Assembly (NCBI GenBank): GCA_938075415.1
Contig: CALJHC010000001.1
Location: forward strand, 186,001-250,000
Origin: an uncultured Rubripirellula sp.
GTDB lineage: Bacteria > Planctomycetota > Planctomycetia > Pirellulales > Pirellulaceae
Reading direction: 5' to 3'
DNA length: 64,000 nucleotides
Positions 6,408 through 16,741 of this stretch are shown in pieces. The translations under genes and the position numbers were made by a program. The notes below the pieces were generated by a model, which saw only the letters and a list, made by a program, of their open reading frames with translations, made no database searches and was not told the DNA's origin. Position 1 is the first letter of the stretch, and every line of letters begins with the position of its first letter.

Positions 6408-8204
6408 TTGCAATCGATCCACCTTGATATTAACACGACATTAAAAAACCTTTCTATGCAGATCCCATCCAGTCAACTGGCTCGAAGACACCACATGCAC
6501 CAGAATCATCACGCGAAAATCAACAATCAGAACCATCGGGCAGTGACTCGCTCCAAAAAGGTTGAAGGATCAGCAACACACTACTTTATTGGGCTGATTC
6601 TTTTGCTTGGTTCGATTGCCGAACCGCAAATCGTTCAGGCCGAGCGTCCACACATCGTCATGGCTTTTGCGGATGACTGGGGTAAGTACGCAAGCATTTA
6701 TGCAAAACTTGAACCCGGCAGTATCAACGAACATTTAAGTACGCCTAATTTCGACCAAGTTGCGACACAAGGGACCCTTTTTACGAATGCCTTCGTTAGT
6801 GCGCCCTCCTGCACTCCTTGCCGAAGCTCTTTGTTGTCAGGTCAACATTTCTGGCGATGTGAACGGGGAGCAATCTTACAGGGAGCCGTATGGGATGGGT
6901 CCATCAAATCGTATCCCCTCGAGCTGGAAAAAACTGGCTATCGTCTTGGGCATACCTACAAAGTCTGGAGCCCAGGAACCCCAGCAGATGCACCCCACGG
7001 TGGTTCAGCTAGAAAGTTTCAGAAGCATGGCTCAAAATTCAATGGCTTTTCCCAATATGCAATGAAACAACAGGACCACGAGAAAGCAAAGGCCGAGTTA
7101 CTGAACGAGGTGAGACAAAATGTCCGCTCTTTCCTTGATGCCGATCAAGATGGAAACCTCGATGGTGATCAGCCAGTTTGTTATTGGCTTGGACCGACCA
7201 ATACACATCGGAAATGGATAGCGGGAAGTGGAAAGACACTTTGGGGTATCAATCCTGATTCTCTCGAAGGAAAGCTACCGCCCTACCTGCCAGACGTTCA
7301 TACCGTGCGTGAAGATTTTGCCGATTACCTCGGCGAAGTCATGGCTTTTGACGCTGGACTAGGTGTTTTGATCGACGAACTAAAACGAGTTGGTATTTAC
7401 GATAACACTTTACTAGTTGTCAGTGGCGATCATGGCATTCCAGGAATCAGTCGTGGTAAATGCAATCTCTACGACCTCGGCACGCAAGTGCCACTGGCCA
7501 TACGATGGCCCAAAGGAATTAATGGATCAGAACGAGTCATCGCTGACTTCGTCTCATTACCTGATCTTGCACCCACTTTCCTTGATGCTGCTGGTGTCGA
7601 ACGCCCTGAATCCATGACATCGAAATCACTCTTACCTCTGCTTGAACAATCGGGTTCGGGAATAATTGACCCGACACGTGACGCTGTATTCACAGGTCGC
7701 GAAAGGCACGTTGCTGCCGCAAGAACAAACTTCCTTCCGTATCCACAAAGAGCGATCCGTACAAAACAGCACCTGTACATTATTAATTTCGAATCTGCTC
7801 GCTGGCCCATGGGAACGGGACCAGGCTACGGCGTTGATGAAAATGCCATGCCTGATTACCAAAGCTTGAGAGAAAATACCTTCGCAGCTTTTGGTGATTT
7901 AGATGCCAGCCCAACCAAGGCATGGATCATTTCACACCGGCAGGAATCTCCCGAGTTCTTCGATTTTGCGGTTGGGCTGCGACCACACCTTGAACTCTAT
8001 AACATCCAAAAAGATCCGCATTGCATGACCAATCTGGCTAACCAACCCGGCAAAACTCAGCTACAAAAAGTTTTGCACGACAGACTCATTAGCGAGCTCA
8101 CCAAAACCGGTGACCCACGCCTAAAGCCCCCCGTTATTTTCGAGGCCTCCCCCTACACAGACGGATTTCAAAGAGGAAAAAGAAAACCACCTCAAAGAAA
8201 GTAA
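6408..8204 (+). CDS. Secreted sulfatase (formylglycine motif CTPCR)
   Basis: Type I sulfatase, 598 residues from the first ATG. The later ATGs at 6453 or 6495 are equally possible, because the hydrophobic export segment (HYFIGLILLLGSIA) starts only near residue 60. The mature part begins ERPHIVMAFADDWG, where the paired Asp are calcium ligands. Cys135 in C-T-P-C-R-S-S is the residue expected to become formylglycine. Further family signs are the lysine/histidine-rich middle, GDHGIPGISRGK and IRWPKG. An insert at about residues 240-250 reads DADQDGNLDGD, an EF-hand-like acidic loop. The protein presumably removes sulfate esters from polysaccharides outside the cytoplasm. It lies alone, followed by a 12-bp perfect palindrome at 8206-8217 (caacgcgcgttg). 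Substrate cannot be assigned. Confidence 0.92.
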   Translation: MQSIHLDINTTLKNLSMQIPSSQLARRHHMHQNHHAKINNQNHRAVTRSKKVEGSATHYFIGLILLLGSIAEPQIVQAERPHIVMAFADDWGKYASIYAKLEPGSINEHLSTPNFDQVATQGTLFTNAFVSAPSCTPCRSSLLSGQHFWRCERGAILQGAVWDGSIKSYPLELEKTGYRLGHTYKVWSPGTPADAPHGGSARKFQKHGSKFNGFSQYAMKQQDHEKAKAELLNEVRQNVRSFLDADQDGNLDGDQPVCYWLGPTNTHRKWIAGSGKTLWGINPDSLEGKLPPYLPDVHTVREDFADYLGEVMAFDAGLGVLIDELKRVGIYDNTLLVVSGDHGIPGISRGKCNLYDLGTQVPLAIRWPKGINGSERVIADFVSLPDLAPTFLDAAGVERPESMTSKSLLPLLEQSGSGIIDPTRDAVFTGRERHVAAARTNFLPYPQRAIRTKQHLYIINFESARWPMGTGPGYGVDENAMPDYQSLRENTFAAFGDLDASPTKAWIISHRQESPEFFDFAVGLRPHLELYNIQKDPHCMTNLANQPGKTQLQKVLHDRLISELTKTGDPRLKPPVIFEASPYTDGFQRGKRKPPQRK

Positions 8205-8643: not shown

Positions 8644-9000
8644 CTAGTTGGCTTGAATTCGAAAACGTAGTTCTTTGACTTTGCTATCAGGGAATTTTTG
8701 TTGAATCACATCGAGAATCTCTCGCTTCCTAAAATTCAATTCCTGTAGCATCACGGAATCCGAGACATAGATGTGCAACTTGCCAGATTTCAAATTACCG
8801 ATTTGGAAACTATCTTTCAAATTCTTTCCCAATAATTCGGAAACCACGGACGCCATCGCTTCATTAGCGGAAACCTGAGCATATCCACGACGAGCAAGTA
8901 ACTGATTAACCCATGAACTGATTGGCCTCACACCTGCTCGCTCGTCAGATTTACCGAGCGGCGTCTTTCCGCTCGCTCTTGTCGTTTTTCGCTTTGCCAA
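8644..9000 (-). CDS. dciA: DciA / DUF721 family replicative helicase loader
   Basis: 118 residues, starting with TTG at 9000 (GAGAG about 10 nt upstream). The C-terminal 80 residues match the DUF721 pattern: ISSWVNQLLARRGYAQ, then a strand/helix unit LKSGKLHIYVSDSVMLQEL and the closing IQQKFPDSKVKELRFRI. DciA is the ancestral loader or operator of DnaB helicase in bacteria that lack DnaC or DnaI. The N-terminus is short and basic (MAKRKTTRASGKTP), as in many DciA proteins. It stands alone between the sulfatase and a probable pseudogene. The family call is good; the function is inferred from family knowledge. Confidence 0.85.
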   Translation of the reverse strand: MAKRKTTRASGKTPLGKSDERAGVRPISSWVNQLLARRGYAQVSANEAMASVVSELLGKNLKDSFQIGNLKSGKLHIYVSDSVMLQELNFRKREILDVIQQKFPDSKVKELRFRIQAN

Positions 9001-9583: not shown

Positions 9584-10006
9584 TTACTCTGCCTCGCGAT
9601 CAATCGTGTGCCTCCGAAAACAGGCTAATGTTTTCGGACTGACGTGATGCTCAATTCCTTCGGCGTCAATCGCTGCTGTTTGCTGATCGATCCCAAGTGT
9701 CAATAAAAACTGATAGACAATCTCGTGGCGTTCTCCGCAACGCTTGGCGAGCCGACTTCCCTTCTGGGTTAGGTTGATCGGCTGATAAGGCTCTGTCGCA
9801 AGCAACCCCTCTTTTTCCAATCTGGCAACCGTCCGATTCGCCGTAACATGACTAACTCCGAAGTAGCTTGCCAAATCAACCAATCGGCAAGTCGCTTTTT
9901 CGGAGATAATCTCGGCAACAGCCTCCACATAATCCTCCGCAATCTCGGTGGAATGATCGCTACGAGTCCTCCTGTGTGGCAGAGACTGCCGGGCATGGTC
10001 AGACAC
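9584..10006 (-). CDS. mntR: Manganese-dependent repressor MntR (DtxR family)
   Basis: 140 residues: N-terminal winged helix (CRLVDLASYFGVSHVTANRTVARLEKEGLL) and C-terminal dimerisation domain. All six Mn ligands known from Bacillus subtilis MntR (D8, E11, H77, E99, E102, H103) are present here as D25, E28, H94, E116, E119 and H120, a constant offset of 17, which argues strongly for a true Mn/Fe-sensing MntR. There is no SH3-like third domain, as in MntR and unlike DtxR/IdeR. It is transcribed away from mntABCD, 157 bp apart; two palindromes in that gap are the likely operators. It should repress uptake when Mn(II) is sufficient. Confidence 0.95.
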   Translation of the reverse strand: MSDHARQSLPHRRTRSDHSTEIAEDYVEAVAEIISEKATCRLVDLASYFGVSHVTANRTVARLEKEGLLATEPYQPINLTQKGSRLAKRCGERHEIVYQFLLTLGIDQQTAAIDAEGIEHHVSPKTLACFRRHTIDREAE

Positions 10007-10073
10007 AACACTCCTCTTTAGCAGGATTGAAGGAATTCTTTTCTTTCCGCAAACAAAGCATCATTGACGAAAG

Positions 10074-10089
10074 TGTAGCTGAGACTACA
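10074..10089. promoter_or_regulatory. Upstream, weaker MntR operator candidate
   Basis: Inverted repeat tgtag-N6-ctaca. The left half extends to TGTAGC, as in the stronger palindrome to the right, but the right half has ACTACA instead of GCTACA. Its centre lies 33 bp, about three helical turns, from the centre of the second palindrome, so two repressor dimers could sit on the same face. It lies nearer mntR and could mediate autoregulation. Confidence 0.5.
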
Positions 10090-10103
10090 ATCGCAGCAAG
10101 TCC

Positions 10104-10125
10104 TTTTGTAGCTCGTGCTACAAAA
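10104..10125. promoter_or_regulatory. MntR operator candidate (perfect 9+4+9 palindrome)
   Basis: Perfect inverted repeat ttttgtagc-tcgt-gctacaaaa between mntR and mntA. The core TAGC-N4-GCTA and the 22-bp size are the same as in the known Escherichia coli MntR box (core ATAGC-N4-GCTAT). It abuts a perfect TATAAT at 10126, so a bound repressor would cover the -35/-10 spacer of the mntA promoter. Confidence 0.8.
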
Positions 10126-10163: not shown

Positions 10164-11177
10164 GTGATGTCATCGCCAAGACCGCACACGATCATGAGGC
10201 GTTGTATTGTTGCGGGATGCTGCTTGTGGCTGATTGGTTGTTCAGTGAAGCCTCAGAACAATGAGCCTCCTCCAGAGAACGGGCCTGAATCCGAGGACTC
10301 ACTGGAGATCCTTGCCACCGTTGGAATGGTTGCTGACCTGGTTCGCCTAGTTGGGGCGGAACATGTGGAAGTCACGCAACTTATGGGATCGGGCGTTGAT
10401 CCTCATCTCTACAAGGCCAACCGGGACGATATCCAATTTGTTTTAGAGAGTGATGCGGTGTTTTACTCCGGCCATCACCTCGAAGGAAAAATGACCGACA
10501 CATTGGAAAAACTCTCAAAGCAAAAACCGGTGATTGCGGTTGGAGAAGAAATCAATCAAGACGATTTAGTTCAATCTTCAGAATCGCAGATTCAGGTCGA
10601 TCCACACCTGTGGATGAATATTTCGATTTGGTCTCAGGGTCTCGAAGTCGTCGCTAACGCTCTTTCTTCACTGGATCCAAAACATGCGGATACCTATACG
10701 GAGAACGCAAAGAACGCACTGTCACAATTTCGGGATTTGCATCAATACGGTATTGAAGTAATCGGCAGCATTCCTGAGGAAAAACGGGTTCTAATTACCT
10801 CTCATGATGCATTTCAGTATTTCGGTGATGCTTATGAGATCGAAGTGCTTGGGGTCCAGGGAATCTCGACCGAGTCCGAAGCAGGGCTTCAACGCATCAA
10901 TGCAATTGTGGATTTGATCACTGACCGAAAGATCAGCGCGATTTTTATTGAAAGTAGTGTCCCTCGGAAAAATGTTGATTCATTAATTGAAGGTGCAAGG
11001 GCACGAGGCCATGAGGTAATTATTGGCGGTGAATTATTATCCGATGCAATGGGCAGCGAGGGTAGTTATGAAGGCAGTTATCTCGGCATGATGGATCACA
11101 ACCTGACCCGTGTTGCTCAAGCTTTGGGTGGAGAGGCACCCGATTCTGGATTCCAAAGAAAACTAAAGACTGACTGA
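10164..11177 (+). CDS. mntA: Manganese/zinc ABC transporter substrate-binding lipoprotein
   Basis: Cluster A-I (TroA/PsaA/ZnuA-like) metal-binding lipoprotein, 337 residues from GTG 10164; ATG 10167 or 10194 are alternatives. The lipobox LIGC puts the lipidated Cys at 26. Candidate metal ligands line up with the family: H81 (VDPHLYK), H148 (VDPHLWMN), H214 (TSHDAFQYF) and D294 (LLSDAMG). There is no long His-rich loop of the ZnuA kind, and the neighbour MntR points to Mn(II). It captures metal outside the inner membrane and delivers it to the two permeases. It is the first gene of a four-gene operon ordered as in the Bacillus mntABCD operon, so those symbols are used by analogy. Confidence 0.9.
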   Translation: MMSSPRPHTIMRRCIVAGCCLWLIGCSVKPQNNEPPPENGPESEDSLEILATVGMVADLVRLVGAEHVEVTQLMGSGVDPHLYKANRDDIQFVLESDAVFYSGHHLEGKMTDTLEKLSKQKPVIAVGEEINQDDLVQSSESQIQVDPHLWMNISIWSQGLEVVANALSSLDPKHADTYTENAKNALSQFRDLHQYGIEVIGSIPEEKRVLITSHDAFQYFGDAYEIEVLGVQGISTESEAGLQRINAIVDLITDRKISAIFIESSVPRKNVDSLIEGARARGHEVIIGGELLSDAMGSEGSYEGSYLGMMDHNLTRVAQALGGEAPDSGFQRKLKTD

Positions 11178-11193: not shown

Positions 11194-12021
11194 GTGAACC
11201 GACCTTCATGGCACCCATCAATGTTCAGTTCGAGTGATAAACAACAAGACGACTCAGATTCAGCGCCACTGTTGGTTGAAGACCTAACAGTGGCCTACCA
11301 TCGCAAACCGGTACTCTGGGATGTTGAATTCCAAATTCCCAAAGGGTCACTTGTCGGTATTGTGGGGCCCAACGGCGCTGGCAAGAGCACGTTACTCAAA
11401 GCAATCATGGGTCTCGTTCCTATCGCTACCGGATCGATCAAGGTTTTCAATACGCCGTATCGGAAAGCTCGAGCCAAGGTAGGATATGTCCCACAAAAAG
11501 AAAGTGTTGACTGGGATTTTCCTGTGACGGCGCTCGATGTTGTCATGATGGGCCTCTACAAACAAATTGGCTGGTGTTTACCAGCAAGACGACACCATCG
11601 GACACAGGCATTGCGCGCGATGGAGCAAGTGGGGATTGCGGATTTAGCTCATCGACAAATTAGCCAACTCTCCGGTGGGCAACAGCAACGAACTTTTCTC
11701 GCGCGCGCCTTGGTTCAGAATGCCGATTTGTACCTGATGGACGAGCCCTTCGCGGCAGTGGATGCATCAACCGAAAAAGCGATCGTGGAAATCTTAAGGG
11801 GTCTCAAAAAAGAGGGAAAAACGGCGATTGTGATTCATCATGATCTGCAAACAGTCAACTCTTACTTTGACCACGTCATTCTTCTGAATATGAGGGTGGT
11901 AGCCGACGGCCCCGTTGAGGAGGTTTTCAATCAAGAAAATCTTAACAAAACCTATGGCGGTCGCCTAACATTACTCGAAGAGGTTTCCGAAGCAATGCGG
12001 CGTCGGGAGCGGTCATTATGA
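11194..12021 (+). CDS. mntB: Manganese ABC transporter ATPase
   Basis: 275 residues from GTG 11194 (16 bp after mntA); an ATG at 11221 is an alternative that drops nine residues. The ABC ATPase is complete: Walker A GPNGAGKST, Q-loop PQKESVDWDFPVT (typical of Mn/Zn importers), signature LSGGQQQR, Walker B LYLMDEPF, and switch His in IVIHHDL. It powers metal import at the cytoplasmic face together with the MntC and MntD permeases. Its stop overlaps the start of mntC (ATGA at 12018-12021), implying coupled translation. Confidence 0.93.
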   Translation: MNRPSWHPSMFSSSDKQQDDSDSAPLLVEDLTVAYHRKPVLWDVEFQIPKGSLVGIVGPNGAGKSTLLKAIMGLVPIATGSIKVFNTPYRKARAKVGYVPQKESVDWDFPVTALDVVMMGLYKQIGWCLPARRHHRTQALRAMEQVGIADLAHRQISQLSGGQQQRTFLARALVQNADLYLMDEPFAAVDASTEKAIVEILRGLKKEGKTAIVIHHDLQTVNSYFDHVILLNMRVVADGPVEEVFNQENLNKTYGGRLTLLEEVSEAMRRRERSL

Positions 12022-13526
12022 GTGCGACCCCGGCGGAATGTGCACCGTCGCTTGAAAGTCAATCATTCGCGTTTGAATCGCTCGTTGCTGTCTCCGAGCA
12101 GACAACAAATGTATGGAGTCAATTACAACGCTTGCTGTTCTTGCAGGACTACAACACTCGAGTTGTTCTATTCGGTGCAGCAATGCTGGGAGGGGCTGCT
12201 GGTGTTGTGGGTGTTTTTACCCTGTTACGCAAGCGCGCCTTGATGGGGGATGCGATAAGTCATGCCACACTGCCTGGAATTACCATTAGTTTTCTCGCGG
12301 CAAGCATTTGGGGATTTGATGAAAAATCCTTACCCCTATTGTTAGTCGGCGCCACGGTAACCGGTCTACTGGGCGTTTCGACCATTCTGCTGCTTCGGGG
12401 TCTCACCAAACTGAAAGAAGACACGTCCCTGAGCATTGTGTTGAGTGTTTTTTTTGGTGCTGGTATCGCATTGCTGGGAATCATCCAGCAAATGCCCAAG
12501 GGACACGCCGCAGGTCTGGAATCTTTCATTCTTGGAAAGACAGCATCGATGGTGGTTAGCGACGCTCAACTCATCGCCGCCGCCTCGATCACTTGCTTGG
12601 CAGGCTGTTCCTTACTGTTTAAAGAACTGAAATTACTCTGTTTTGACGAGAATTTTGCTGGATCCCGTGGTTACCCCATCGTAAAGCTGGACCTTATTTT
12701 GATGGCTTCGGTCGTCGTCATCTCGATCGTGGGTTTACAGGCAGTTGGTTTGATCATGGTGGTTGCGCTACTCGTGACACCAGCAGCATCATCGAGATTC
12801 TGGACCGATGACCTAACGAAGATGACGCTCATTTCCGCCGGGATCGGAATGTTCAGCGGCGTGATTGGAGCGGCGGTTAGCGCTCTCTACCCGAGACTTC
12901 CATCAGGAGCAATGATCGTTCTTTTTTGTGCGACTTGTTTCATGATCAGCATGACACTGGGCGTCAAACGCGGACTGTTAGTGCGTTCTCTTCGGCGCCT
13001 CAAGATCAATCGATCCATCGGGCGGCAACACTTCCTCCGAACCATGTATGAAGTGATGGAGCAAAAACAACAGCTTGGCCTCGAACAATCAATCACAATC
13101 AATGATCTCCTGCCGGCAAGAAGCTGGTCAAAAAACCGTCTGGCAACCATTGTTTCTCGGTCTGCCAGAGAAGAATGGATTACCCGCATCCATCAGGAAG
13201 TACGATTCACAAAAAAAGGGCGGTTTGAGGCTGAGCGGTTAACTCGAGAACACCGACTATGGGAACTCTTTCTGATTCACCACGCTGATATTGCACCAAC
13301 TCGCGTGGATCGTGAAGCCGATCACATTGAACATGTCTTGGAACCGGAAATCGTTGCCGAACTTGAGTTACTGCTGATTGAGGACCAACGAGAATTGCCG
13401 CAAAGCCCGCATGGTTTTGATCATTGGAAACAAACTGACGATTCAAAAAATGGGAACCAGAAACCAAATGGCAACCAGAAACCATCAGCGGAACCACCAG
13501 TCTCTCGCGCAAGAACGGGCAAGTGA
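12018..13526 (+). CDS. mntC: Manganese ABC permease with C-terminal DtxR/MntR-like domain
   Basis: 502 residues. Residues about 45-320 are an ABC-3 type permease with eight or nine hydrophobic segments and the family signature ALMGDAISHATLPGI. After the last helix comes a cytoplasmic region (about 335-455) that copies the MntR layout: a winged-helix-like part (SITINDLLPARSWSKNRLATIV, RFTKKGRFEAERL) and then HRLWELFL and EADHIEHVL. H412, D435, E438 and H439 align with MntR ligands H77, E99, E102 and H103. The last 40 residues are Asn/Gln/Lys-rich. The fusion suggests that the pore subunit senses cytoplasmic Mn(II) itself, perhaps for feedback gating; that is inference. It overlaps mntB and mntD by 4 bp each. 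Confidence 0.9.
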   Translation: MSATPAECAPSLESQSFAFESLVAVSEQTTNVWSQLQRLLFLQDYNTRVVLFGAAMLGGAAGVVGVFTLLRKRALMGDAISHATLPGITISFLAASIWGFDEKSLPLLLVGATVTGLLGVSTILLLRGLTKLKEDTSLSIVLSVFFGAGIALLGIIQQMPKGHAAGLESFILGKTASMVVSDAQLIAAASITCLAGCSLLFKELKLLCFDENFAGSRGYPIVKLDLILMASVVVISIVGLQAVGLIMVVALLVTPAASSRFWTDDLTKMTLISAGIGMFSGVIGAAVSALYPRLPSGAMIVLFCATCFMISMTLGVKRGLLVRSLRRLKINRSIGRQHFLRTMYEVMEQKQQLGLEQSITINDLLPARSWSKNRLATIVSRSAREEWITRIHQEVRFTKKGRFEAERLTREHRLWELFLIHHADIAPTRVDREADHIEHVLEPEIVAELELLLIEDQRELPQSPHGFDHWKQTDDSKNGNQKPNGNQKPSAEPPVSRARTGK

Positions 13527-14854
13527 TGACACTGGACTTAAACTGGAACTGGATGCTTGATGGGTGGATCACCGCAGTTGCAGTGGTATGCGCCATAGCG
13601 TGCGCGCTTCTCGGCAACTTTCTAGTGCTCAGGCGAATGAGCATGCTTGGGGATGCAATCACTCACGCGGTCCTACCAGGATTGGCGGTCGCTTTTTTGA
13701 TCAGCGACAGTCGAGCAAGCTTACCCATGTTCATCGGTGCGGCGATTGTTGGTGTTTTAACCGCTTTCTTTACCGAGTGGATTCGACGCGCGGGCAAGGT
13801 GGATGAGGGGGCCTCGATGGGCGTCGTCTTTACGACACTCTTCGCAATCGGTTTGGTCATGATTGTTCAAACAATTGATCAAGTGGACCTCGATGCCAAC
13901 TGTGTACTCTACGGCTCCATCGAACTCACTCCGCTCGACACCATCGATGTTGCTGGCTGGCAGATCCCACGGGCATTTTGCACACTTTTTCTGGTCATGT
14001 TAATCAATTTGACCTTTGTGATTGTCTTCTACAAAGAGCTGAAAGTCACCTCATTTGACCCCAGCCTCGCTGGTAGCATCGGCTTCTCACCGGCCATCAT
14101 TCATTACGCACTGATGGTGTTGGTAGCCATCACTGCAGTGGCAAGTTTTGAGAGTGTCGGTAGCGTCCTTGTGGTTGCAATGATGGTGGTGCCTGCAGCC
14201 ACGGCGTATCTGCTGACACATCGGCTTCACATCATGATCTGCTTCAGTATTCTTGCGGCAATCATATCGGCTGTCGCCGGCCACGTTAGCGCGATTGCAA
14301 TTCCAGCATCATTTGGATTCCGAAGTACCTCAACCGCTGGAATGATGGCTGTCATCTCAGGCTTACTCCTATTCTTGGCAGCCATGTTCGCCCCTCGTCA
14401 AGGAATCGCAGTCAAACTATGGAACCAGCTCGCTTTAAGCTGGCATATCCTTGGTGACGACATCGTCGCGTTGCTTTATCGAGTTGACGAAAAACAGGCA
14501 AATCAACGTACCGAGAAAGCATGGATTCGAGAGGTGTTACTTTGCAGTCCTCTTTCTTTCACTGTGGTGATGACTTGGCTCCGAATACGTGGTGAAATTG
14601 TCATTAAAACCAATGAACTTGTTCTCACTGATCAAGGACAACACAGGGCCCAGAATCTGGTTCGCTCACATCGACTATGGGAGCAGTATTTGCTTGATCA
14701 GGTTGGGATCGATCCGAGTCGCGTCCACCCACAAGCTGAGCAAATGGAGCACTACACGGACAAAAAAATGCGTCAACAACTCCATCAGGTCACTGAGAAG
14801 CCCTCGATCGATCCCCACGGCAGTCCAATTCCTGAAGAACGTTCAACGAAATAG
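13523..14854 (+). CDS. mntD: Second manganese ABC permease with C-terminal DtxR/MntR-like domain
   Basis: 443 residues, overlapping mntC by 4 bp. The ABC-3 permease part is at about residues 10-295 (signature MLGDAITHAVLPGLAVAF). It is followed by a winged-helix-like segment (REVLLCSPLSFTVVMTWL, LTDQGQHRAQNL) and the dimerisation-type motif. H383 (SHRLWEQYL), E406, E409 and H410 (EQMEH) match MntR H77, E99, E102 and H103 exactly in kind. It is a paralogue of mntC, probably forming a heterodimeric pore, so the fused domains could pair as DtxR-type domains do. It is the last gene of the operon; inverted repeats follow the stop. Confidence 0.9.
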   Translation: MMTLDLNWNWMLDGWITAVAVVCAIACALLGNFLVLRRMSMLGDAITHAVLPGLAVAFLISDSRASLPMFIGAAIVGVLTAFFTEWIRRAGKVDEGASMGVVFTTLFAIGLVMIVQTIDQVDLDANCVLYGSIELTPLDTIDVAGWQIPRAFCTLFLVMLINLTFVIVFYKELKVTSFDPSLAGSIGFSPAIIHYALMVLVAITAVASFESVGSVLVVAMMVVPAATAYLLTHRLHIMICFSILAAIISAVAGHVSAIAIPASFGFRSTSTAGMMAVISGLLLFLAAMFAPRQGIAVKLWNQLALSWHILGDDIVALLYRVDEKQANQRTEKAWIREVLLCSPLSFTVVMTWLRIRGEIVIKTNELVLTDQGQHRAQNLVRSHRLWEQYLLDQVGIDPSRVHPQAEQMEHYTDKKMRQQLHQVTEKPSIDPHGSPIPEERSTK

Positions 14855-15130: not shown

Positions 15131-16741
15131 ATGAAACAAGCAGAAAATTGCCCGCAGAGAACGGGTTTTGCAATTCTCATTCTGCTATCCCTTCTTCTCG
15201 AGTTGAGTATCTGCCGAGCAGATACACCAAGACCAAATATTCTTTTGATCATGGCTGATGACTTGGGTTATTCGGATCTTGGTTGCTATGGAGGGGAGAT
15301 CAAAACACCGAATCTGGATTCGCTTGCCGCAGGTGGGGTTCGCTTCACGCAGTTTTACAATACCGGTCGTTGCTGGCCCACGCGTGCCTCTCTTTTGACG
15401 GGATTTTACCCGCATGGCATTCGACGGGACAAAGTGCAAGGCATCGCCAGCGGTAACCGAGGCGTTCGGCCTTCGTGGGCGCCCGTCATTGCCAGTCGCC
15501 TCAAGGCGGGCGGCTATCGTAGTTACCACACCGGAAAATGGCACCTCGACAGCATGCCTATCGCATCAGGTTTTGATCGGTCTTATTACCTGAAAGATCA
15601 ACATCGTTTTTTTAGTCCAACGCTGCATTGGAAAAATGACATTCCGCTTCCGCCTATTCCCAAGGGATCTGATTACTATGCCACGGTTGCATTGGGTGAT
15701 CACGTGCTTGAGTGCATCGATGATCACGTAACAGCACACCGCGACCAACCTTTCTTCCACTACCTTGCTTTCACCGCGCCTCACTTCCCGCTGCACGCCC
15801 TACCAAAAGACATTGAGCGATACCGCGATCGTTACAACATCGGCTGGGATTTGGTTAGGCAAACGCGGTGGGAGAAAATCCAATCGCTCGGACTGGTGCA
15901 GGCAGATCTTTCAAAAGTCATGCCCACCGTTGGGCCACCCTATCACTTTCCAGATGCATTGAAACAACTGGGTAAAAACGAAATCAGTCGCCCACTCAAG
16001 TGGGATTCGCTGACAGATACGCAGCAGGATTTCCAGTCAAGCAAAATGCAAATCCACGCCGCCATGGTTGACTGCATGGATCAGCAGGTTGGTCGAATCA
16101 TTCACAAACTTCGTGACCAGCACTTGCTTGATAACACCGTGGTGTTCTTCCTCTCTGATAACGGAGCGAGTGCAGAAATCATGGTTCGAGGAGATGGCCA
16201 TGACGCTGCGGCAGAAAGGGGATCTGCAGATAGCCACCTATGCTTGGGTCCTGGATGGTCAACGACTGCCAACACACCATTTCGGTACCATAAAACCTGG
16301 ACACATGAAGGCGGCACCGCGACACCACTCATCGTGCATTGGACCAAGGGAATTGAAGCGGTCGGGGCCATTCGCCATCAAGTGGGACACGTCATTGACC
16401 TTTGGCCGACCATCGCTGAAATAACTGGCGTTGACTCAGTGAGCACGGCGTCGGCCTTATTTCCACGACCTGGTAGAAGCCTGATTCCATTCTTAGATTC
16501 CGATCAAACAGAGCCGAGAACCATTTGGTGGTCACACGAGGCAAATCGTGCGTTGCGTATCGGAAATTGGAAAATTGCCGCAGCAGGCAATGAAGGCAGT
16601 TGGGAACTATACGATTTATCGACCGATCGAACAGAAACAACTGACCTTGCAGCGCAACACCCGGAGAAGGTCGAGGAGATGTCGATCGTTTGGAAAACGA
16701 TCAACACACAACAATCAAACTGGGCTCTGCAACCCAACTAA
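15131..16741 (+). CDS. Secreted arylsulfatase (motif CWPTR)
   Basis: 536 residues with a signal peptide (ILILLSLLLELSICRA) and a mature start TPRPNILLIMADDLGYSDLGCYGG, where the Asp pair binds calcium. Cys81 of C-W-P-T-R-A-S-L-L-T-G is the predicted formylglycine. HTGKWHLD and VVFFLSDNGAS are further sulfatase blocks. Length and domain order are usual for arylsulfatase A-like planctomycete enzymes. The gene stands alone; the next genes are on the opposite strand. The enzyme would act in the periplasm or outside on sulfated glycans; the substrate is unknown. Confidence 0.93.
   Translation: MKQAENCPQRTGFAILILLSLLLELSICRADTPRPNILLIMADDLGYSDLGCYGGEIKTPNLDSLAAGGVRFTQFYNTGRCWPTRASLLTGFYPHGIRRDKVQGIASGNRGVRPSWAPVIASRLKAGGYRSYHTGKWHLDSMPIASGFDRSYYLKDQHRFFSPTLHWKNDIPLPPIPKGSDYYATVALGDHVLECIDDHVTAHRDQPFFHYLAFTAPHFPLHALPKDIERYRDRYNIGWDLVRQTRWEKIQSLGLVQADLSKVMPTVGPPYHFPDALKQLGKNEISRPLKWDSLTDTQQDFQSSKMQIHAAMVDCMDQQVGRIIHKLRDQHLLDNTVVFFLSDNGASAEIMVRGDGHDAAAERGSADSHLCLGPGWSTTANTPFRYHKTWTHEGGTATPLIVHWTKGIEAVGAIRHQVGHVIDLWPTIAEITGVDSVSTASALFPRPGRSLIPFLDSDQTEPRTIWWSHEANRALRIGNWKIAAAGNEGSWELYDLSTDRTETTDLAAQHPEKVEEMSIVWKTINTQQSNWALQPN

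Follow-up and report, generated by a model that had tools for sequence, protein, structure and literature searches.

Why would a bacterial metal importer encoded beside a free transcriptional regulator carry two further copies of that regulator's sensing fold on its own pore subunits? The question is raised by the mnt locus of a 64,000-nucleotide stretch (hereafter the window) from an uncultured Rubripirellula sp. (Planctomycetota; contig CALJHC010000001.1, positions 186,001 to 250,000), where a reverse-strand mntR gene is followed by mntA, mntB, mntC and mntD, with overlaps of a few bases among the last three, and where mntC and mntD, each one uninterrupted frame, encode ATP-binding cassette (ABC) permeases that continue into a C-terminal domain of the DtxR family (Table 1). 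Judging from sequence conservation, we consider it probable that these domains are DtxR-derived sensors devoid of DNA reading, which would brake the importer directly when metal is high, beside repression by MntR. Direct Mn(II) feedback on the transporter had been suggested in a preliminary description of the locus; we still infer it, and conservation supports it best because the register between membrane and sensor is fixed, the metal ligands have been retained and the DNA-reading helix relaxed, and a free regulator stands alongside.

In the draft assembly that was searched (5.96 Mb, 52 contigs, 87% complete), PF02742 is matched above its cut-off three times, in MntR, MntC and MntD, all at the mnt locus, which bears out the threefold occurrence of the sensing fold proposed earlier. 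The Pfam searches advised for the two C termini place the family at residues 398–453 of MntC (50.3 bits, E = 2e-13) and 369–438 of MntD (77.6 bits, E = 8e-22), against a cut-off of 27, downstream of the ABC-3 permease domain (E = 7e-54 in MntC). In phmmer comparisons with the PDB, MntD 313–439 aligns with ScaR 6–131 (E = 4e-10) over a span that includes the suspected winged helix, and MntC 336–453 aligns with SloR (E = 3e-6). By sequence, ScaR, DtxR and IdeR are the closest relatives of known structure, with B. subtilis MntR weaker (E = 2.9e-4), so that the original label "MntR-like" is imprecise. With DtxR, IdeR, ScaR, SloR and DR2539 the fused domains share a winged helix and a metal-binding dimerisation domain with the same ligand positions; they differ in sitting on a permease, in their relaxed recognition helix and in the third domain (SH3/FeoA), which Pfam did not find in MntC or MntD. 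MntD retains the DPHGSPIP segment, and the nearest MntC domain outside the window, found by scanning genome contigs, belongs to a Rubripirellula metagenome-assembled genome (MAG; 59%).

The metal site is preserved residue by residue. Alignment sets DtxR H79, C102, E105 and H106 against H412, D435, E438 and H439 of MntC and H383, E406, E409 and H410 of MntD, the very residues first named as candidate ligands, and sets the second DtxR-type group (H79, E83 and H98) against H383, E387 and H402 of MntD and H412, E416 and D431 of MntC. The helix-1 ligands, initially described as not obvious, are half there: the counterpart of MntR D8, at DtxR position 10 (M10 in DtxR), is present as D313 in MntD and H338 in MntC, whereas that of MntR E11 is missing, its place being held by A316 and R341 (R13 in DtxR). 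With M, D, N, H or Q permitted at position 10 and C, D, E, H or M at position 102, all seven ligand positions are filled in 148 of 155 fused domains versus 33/35 among free long DtxRs; among free short MntRs, which lack E83 and H98, the five core positions are filled in 17/20 and all seven in 0/20. These counts, like the entropies and identity ratios below, omit, beyond the rows removed from the domain tree described below, the fragments L037_R, L144_R and L117_R, the three separate single-permease domains of the Saprospiraceae/Bacteroidia loci L145, L146 and L148, and the ATPase fusions. Entropy at the ligand positions is 0.19–0.48 in the fused groups versus 0.50 in free long DtxRs, and the ligands are invariant or nearly so from Planctomycetota through Bacteroidota. 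Against constancy over this range, the idea that the domains are a non-functional relic of an old fusion is hardly credible, even if the low model confidence of the MntC metal region and the incomplete ligand set in 7 of the 155 fused domains speak for it.

The DNA-reading part of the fold has been kept far less strictly. Over DtxR positions 36–50, mean entropy is 1.62 bits in free DtxR and 1.68 in free MntR proteins, and rises in the fused groups to 2.72 in MntC of the Planctomycetes-Verrucomicrobia-Chlamydiae superphylum, 2.18 in Bacteroidota MntC and 3.03 in MntD, with 1.82 in the single-permease type (six rows only). Because sampling breadth could raise entropy, the comparison was redone within loci holding both kinds, in three matched genome sets of 10, 11 and 10 loci whose membership and row grouping we chose. 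The ratio of identity in the recognition helix to identity in PF02742 is 1.06, 0.82 and 0.81 for free regulators, compared with 0.49/0.42 and 0.44/0.44 for MntC/MntD in two sets and 0.33 for MntC in the third, and the bootstrap ranges of free and fused proteins do not overlap. DtxR positions 40 and 42 contact DNA in DtxR; Ser or Thr at the former together with Ser, Thr or Asn at the latter occurs in 50 of 55 free regulators versus 5 of 155 fused domains. The conserved DNA recognition helix that characterises DtxR-family repressors was thus not found in the fused domains. The fused domain might instead act as a membrane-tethered transcription factor, contacting DNA without leaving the permease. 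In favour of this are the persistence of the winged helix and a median net charge over DtxR-equivalent residues 27–52 that is higher in the four fused groups (+2 to +3) than in both free groups (+1), and the mntR–mntA gap also contains an imperfect palindrome (10030–10041) that is unlike the proposed MntR repeat; given the relaxed recognition helix, we regard it as very unlikely.

What is fixed, by contrast with the relaxed helix, is the distance from the membrane to the sensor. The membrane-exit glycine (G319 in MntC, G294 in MntD) precedes the helix-1 ligand by 19 residues in 74/74 MntC-type and 41/41 MntD-type proteins, a count that takes in every fused permease of the scanned loci and the window's two, in phyla as far apart as Planctomycetota and Bacteroidota; all 115 keep the glycine, and 114 have D, H or N as the ligand, the MntC of L140 having K. 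From the helix-1 ligand to the next ligand the interval is 62–82 (n = 38) and 67–103 (n = 54) in two sets whose rows we chose, covering 37/40 and 53/73 of the loci with a fused subunit. A further planctomycete set, aligned separately and overlapping the 115 proteins in two genomes (L038/L090 and L041/L133) and the window, again gives 19 residues in 54/54, the window's two included. Six of these 54 have lost the helix-1 ligand: one degenerate MntC (L067) and five MntD relatives without PF02742 (L047, L050 2244–3359, L053, L054 and L055 3127–4233; Pfam was run on two of the five), in which the winged helix and the spacing of 19 are kept, the metal domain is gone and L or I stands in place of the ligand. 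Since the spacing never varies, as that of a flexible tether or a cleavage linker would be expected to, it suggests a rigid lever rather than a tether.

The same five relatives, with their winged helix and no metal domain, could be taken to favour a role without feedback, in which the domains serve as a chaperone-like landing or exit site for metal or as a subunit-pairing module aiding assembly, and retained ligands with changed DNA-reading features would suit such a role. We think it unlikely: a purely assembly role would not need a near-invariant metal site, and in many lineages only one subunit is fused.

Modelling was advised for the transporter, and AlphaFold models of the single chains predict a continuous membrane-to-sensor helix in both subunits. 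In MntD (mean predicted local distance difference test score, pLDDT, 91.4; 38-sequence alignment), helix 295–324 starts where the final membrane helix ends and goes on unbroken as sensor helix 1; after it come two helices, a wing of two strands and a further three helices. The MntD domain superposes on the two-domain chains of DR2539, IdeR and DtxR with target template-modelling scores of 0.80–0.85 (Foldseek), and among the matches listed 41 of 42 DtxR-family chains lie at a root-mean-square deviation (rmsd) of 1.6–2.4 Å and one at 3.4 Å. In MntC (pLDDT 86.9; 54 sequences) helix 320–349 is likewise unbroken. The anticipated DtxR-fold match of the C termini is thus obtained by sequence for both domains and confidently by model for MntD, whose sensor fold is predicted; MntC matches the fold only weakly, and its ligand region is of low confidence. 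For the transmembrane part, PsaBC is the best match in fold and in sequence; its solved permease chains (258–290 residues), unlike MntC and MntD, are too short for a C-terminal sensor. We take SitC/SitD and TroC/TroD to be PsaBC-type ABC-3 manganese permeases.

In the feedback model that we favour, MntBCD would be a divalent-metal importer, likely for Mn, each pore subunit of which bears a cytoplasmic DtxR-type sensor. The exit helix of the last transmembrane segment would continue unbroken into sensor helix 1, bearing D313 or H338, and the remaining ligands would lie in the dimerisation part. In DtxR, helix 1 is repositioned when metal binds; in MntC and MntD, metal would draw the helix anchored in the membrane against the dimerisation domain, a clamp whose simplest use would be to brake transport. 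Beneath the pore the two sensors probably form a pair, and high cytosolic metal would lock the transporter in a fast feedback (transinhibition), with a slower layer in which free MntR would repress the operon. We infer metal binding, sensor pairing, the direction of the effect and the identity of the metal; the direction, taken by analogy to be inhibition and not activation, is the step of which we are least sure. MetNI and ModABC are described as importers halted by substrate binding to a cytoplasmic domain at the C terminus (PMC10710835); those regulatory domains have other folds and sit on the ATPase, whereas the MntC and MntD domains are DtxR-like and sit on the permeases, and we propose only that the inhibitory logic may be shared by MntBCD.

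Chlamydia already offers an example of a permease–DtxR fusion. Like MntC and MntD, YtgCR (CT069 / CTL0325, of the ytgABCD operon) is a single frame in which an ABC metal permease is followed by a DtxR-like domain at the C terminus, and its metal ligands are, by the published description, conserved, as they are here. The domain (YtgR) of the Chlamydia trachomatis permease YtgC is reported to be cleaved off, to bind DNA and to repress the ytg operon as the sole identified iron-dependent regulator, the functional fragment being the C-terminal 139 residues; the two original studies disagree over the activating metal (PMC5599777, PMC6504234, PMC7755916). The mnt locus differs from YtgCR in having a free MntR, altered DNA-reading features in its sensor domains and a fusion on both permeases. 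By analogy, the C-terminal domains of MntC and MntD might be cut from the permeases to become soluble metal-dependent repressors, a proposal with a published example of the same domain order and a functional fragment close to the MntC and MntD domains in length; we judge it improbable, given the relaxed recognition helix with positions 40 and 42 changed, the free MntR with an operator-like repeat before mntA, and the invariant membrane-to-sensor spacing. The arrangement, at first rated under-described, is therefore so only in part: the permease–DtxR fusion itself has been published, and what may be new here is the double fusion, the wider distribution and the drift of the DNA-reading part. None of these three, the distribution being that outside Chlamydiota, was found in the open-access literature searched, where no listed title or abstract described the double fusion, a scope beyond which most subscription journals lie.

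How widespread is the fusion? The database survey proposed at the outset shows that it recurs in several phyla, with the double fusion mainly in Planctomycetota. A scan that used the MntC domain as query against genome contigs, of which the best 80 of 482 relatives were followed (L150 and L153 among them being free regulators, and MAG taxon labels, one of which reads Hyphomicrobiaceae, being subject to error), finds MntC-type fusions in Planctomycetota, Verrucomicrobiota, Bacteroidota (Chryseobacterium, Algoriphagus, Ekhidna and Pontibacter included), Omnitrophota, Latescibacterota, Sumerlaeota and a Spirochaetaceae MAG. Among loci whose second permease is whole, 29 of 30 from Planctomycetota have it fused, and the exception (L091) is plain and split in two frames; the Omnitrophota locus (L113), the two from Latescibacterota and the one from Spirochaetaceae also have it fused, and three Bacteroidota loci (L145, L146 and L148) have a single fused permease. 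With open-frame length as proxy for fusion, a fused permease is present in 34/118 Planctomycetota genomes (22 double, 23 counting one cut at a contig end), 14/115 Verrucomicrobiota (6 double) and 11/118 Bacteroidota, the long frames of G059, G392 and G397, of G293 and G344, and of G163, G168 and G190, respectively, being omitted. In a plasmid search 1269 records matched, none with a single place covering more than 80% of the query, and the 30 matches listed (cover at most 69%, ending by residue 333) include no fused relative.

Chance or artefact was ruled out as a source of the fusion, the scores lying far over the cut-offs and the fusion recurring in many genomes, single-contig ones included. 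Recent capture of the adjoining mntR was likewise rejected, as 54 free regulators, the window's MntR among them, group apart from the fused domains (Shimodaira–Hasegawa-like approximate likelihood-ratio support 99). The quick domain tree behind this result (219 of 229 rows, after removal of the five MntD relatives without PF02742, the repeat loci L090 and L133 and sequences shorter than 110 residues) has 101 of 216 inner branches open and requires at fewest 8 label changes for the MntC type and 7 for the MntD type.

Variants of the arrangement were seen in the same material. The fused MntC and MntD genes are distant from each other or on separate contigs in G022, G081 and G097 (L051, L052, L069, L071 and L072), and one shared operon is therefore not required. 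One-permease operons (L056 3092–4606, L049 3002–4540, L057, L058, L060 and L061) join an ABC-3 permease, PF02742 and a further C-terminal part, which in L056 is weakly FeoA-like, below the cut-off, and would make a near-whole three-domain DtxR on one permease. Planctomycetota also hold fusions of an ABC ATPase with a DtxR domain (L064 2983–4068, L059 2059–4623 and L066 3735–4838; Pfam run on L064 and L059). Proteins of about 345 residues (L062 2744–3775 and L063 4768–5805) combine PF02742 with FeoA in two stretches. Frames of the latter length often adjoin a free DtxR in Bacteroidota, and such proteins may regulate FeoB. The occurrence of the module on single permeases, on ABC ATPases and beside two FeoA domains suggests that DtxR parts were recruited into transport-related proteins more than once.

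Several observations weigh against the feedback model. The MntC ligand region (421–440) has pLDDT values of 68 and 59 per ten-residue block, and the MntC domain matches DtxR-family structures with E = 0.03 or worse at rmsd 4.9–13.6 Å, mostly 5–6 Å. The relaxation in MntC extends beyond the recognition helix to the whole winged helix, as the ratio of identity in that helix to identity in the remaining winged helix is 0.97, 0.84 and 0.70 in MntC versus 1.18, 1.18 and 1.12 in free regulators (0.56 and 0.65 in MntD), and a lineage-specific RSWS motif is retained in the MntC winged helix. The known relative YtgCR is reported to work after cleavage as a DNA-binding repressor, and folding constraints alone could also keep the 19-residue spacing. 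Finally, the second permease is fused in only 2/16 Verrucomicrobiota and 0/14 Bacteroidota/Balneolia loci; since outside Planctomycetota the fusion is for the most part confined to MntC, an MntC–MntD sensor pair is not general.

The transcriptional layer has its own candidate element, a perfect inverted repeat between mntR and mntA at which MntR would act and which we take to resemble the E. coli MntR box. Its 14-base core, TTGTAGCN4GCTACAA, has a single exact occurrence in the assembly. With two mismatches allowed, the pattern is found at 9 places (8 not exact) versus 39 for the reversed control, so that the second, imperfect copy in Table 1 is weak evidence and may be a chance match. Before the substrate-binding gene of other loci, TGTAGCN4GCTACA occurs exactly in 7/92 and with at most one mismatch in 16/92; 100 permuted half-sites gave means of 0 and 0.06 loci with a maximum of 3, none equalling the observed values. 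The element is therefore real, yet confined to a minority of loci, and where it is absent long DtxRs acting at different sites may be used instead. Besides the fused proteins, 12/12 genomes counted genome-wide, which we chose from the 80 scanned loci, encode a free PF02742 protein in a short frame.

The imported metal of this divalent-metal ABC importer is most likely manganese, which is favoured by the MntR equivalog match and by the oxygen ligand that replaces DtxR Cys102. The metal residues of MntA, read by eye as presumably His-His-Glu-Asp, were also used for the manganese case. All NCBIfam substrate-binding models fell below cut-off on MntA, the best being the zinc model AztC (169.8 vs 350). 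MntC and MntD, both over the PF00950 cut-off, are the ABC-3 permeases of the assembly, in which no third was found; two strong Nramp matches lie elsewhere in it and thus offer other possible entry routes for divalent metal.

Table 1. Features of the mnt locus (window coordinates).
Feature	Position	Strand	Remarks
MntR, free, short E. coli-type regulator	9584..10006	-	NCBIfam PRK11050.1, 163.3 bits vs cut-off 153
Possible second, imperfect repeat copy	10073..10090	.	2 mismatches; 33 bp upstream of first repeat
Perfect 9-4-9 inverted repeat	10104..10125	.	TTTTGTAGC TCGT GCTACAAAA; proposed MntR operator, between mntR and mntA
mntA-like, substrate-binding lipoprotein	10164..11177	+	PF01297
mntB-like, ABC ATPase	11194..12021	+	overlaps mntC
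mntC-like	12018..13526	+	502 residues; ABC-3 permease 46-313, DtxR-fold domain ~333-453, 49-residue tail
MntC membrane-exit helix and sensor domain	12972..13376	+	residues 319-453; proposed ligands H338, H412, E416, D431, D435, E438, H439
mntD-like	13523..14854	+	443 residues; ABC-3 permease 11-289, DtxR-fold domain ~305-438
MntD membrane-exit helix and sensor domain	14402..14836	+	residues 294-438; proposed ligands D313, H383, E387, H402, E406, E409, H410

The start of MntD is taken as GTG at 13523; a possible alternative ATG at 13526 would shift its numbering down by one. The locus adjoins a reverse-strand gene for the replication-related protein DciA (8647–9000; PF05258, 58.6 bits), and sulfatase-like proteins, judged by eye from their translations, flank the operon on both sides (6408–8204 and 15131–16741).

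Tentatively, and with slightly less than even confidence, we extend the feedback reading to an importer class found in several phyla, Planctomycetota, Verrucomicrobiota and Bacteroidota among them, in which DNA-dead DtxR sensors would be rigidly geared to the last membrane helix by a fixed 19-residue helix, the MntC–MntD pair of Planctomycetota would shut the pore once cytosolic manganese suffices, and YtgR would represent a derived or additional use of a module whose older role lay in controlling the transporter. If true, a transcription-factor fold would have become a metal brake built into the importer, on its permease and not on its ATPase, in at least three phyla. This would account for the further copies of the sensor that organisms already equipped with a free MntR or DtxR carry in their transporter, and would provide a testable answer to what the Chlamydia YtgR domain does while it is still attached to its permease.

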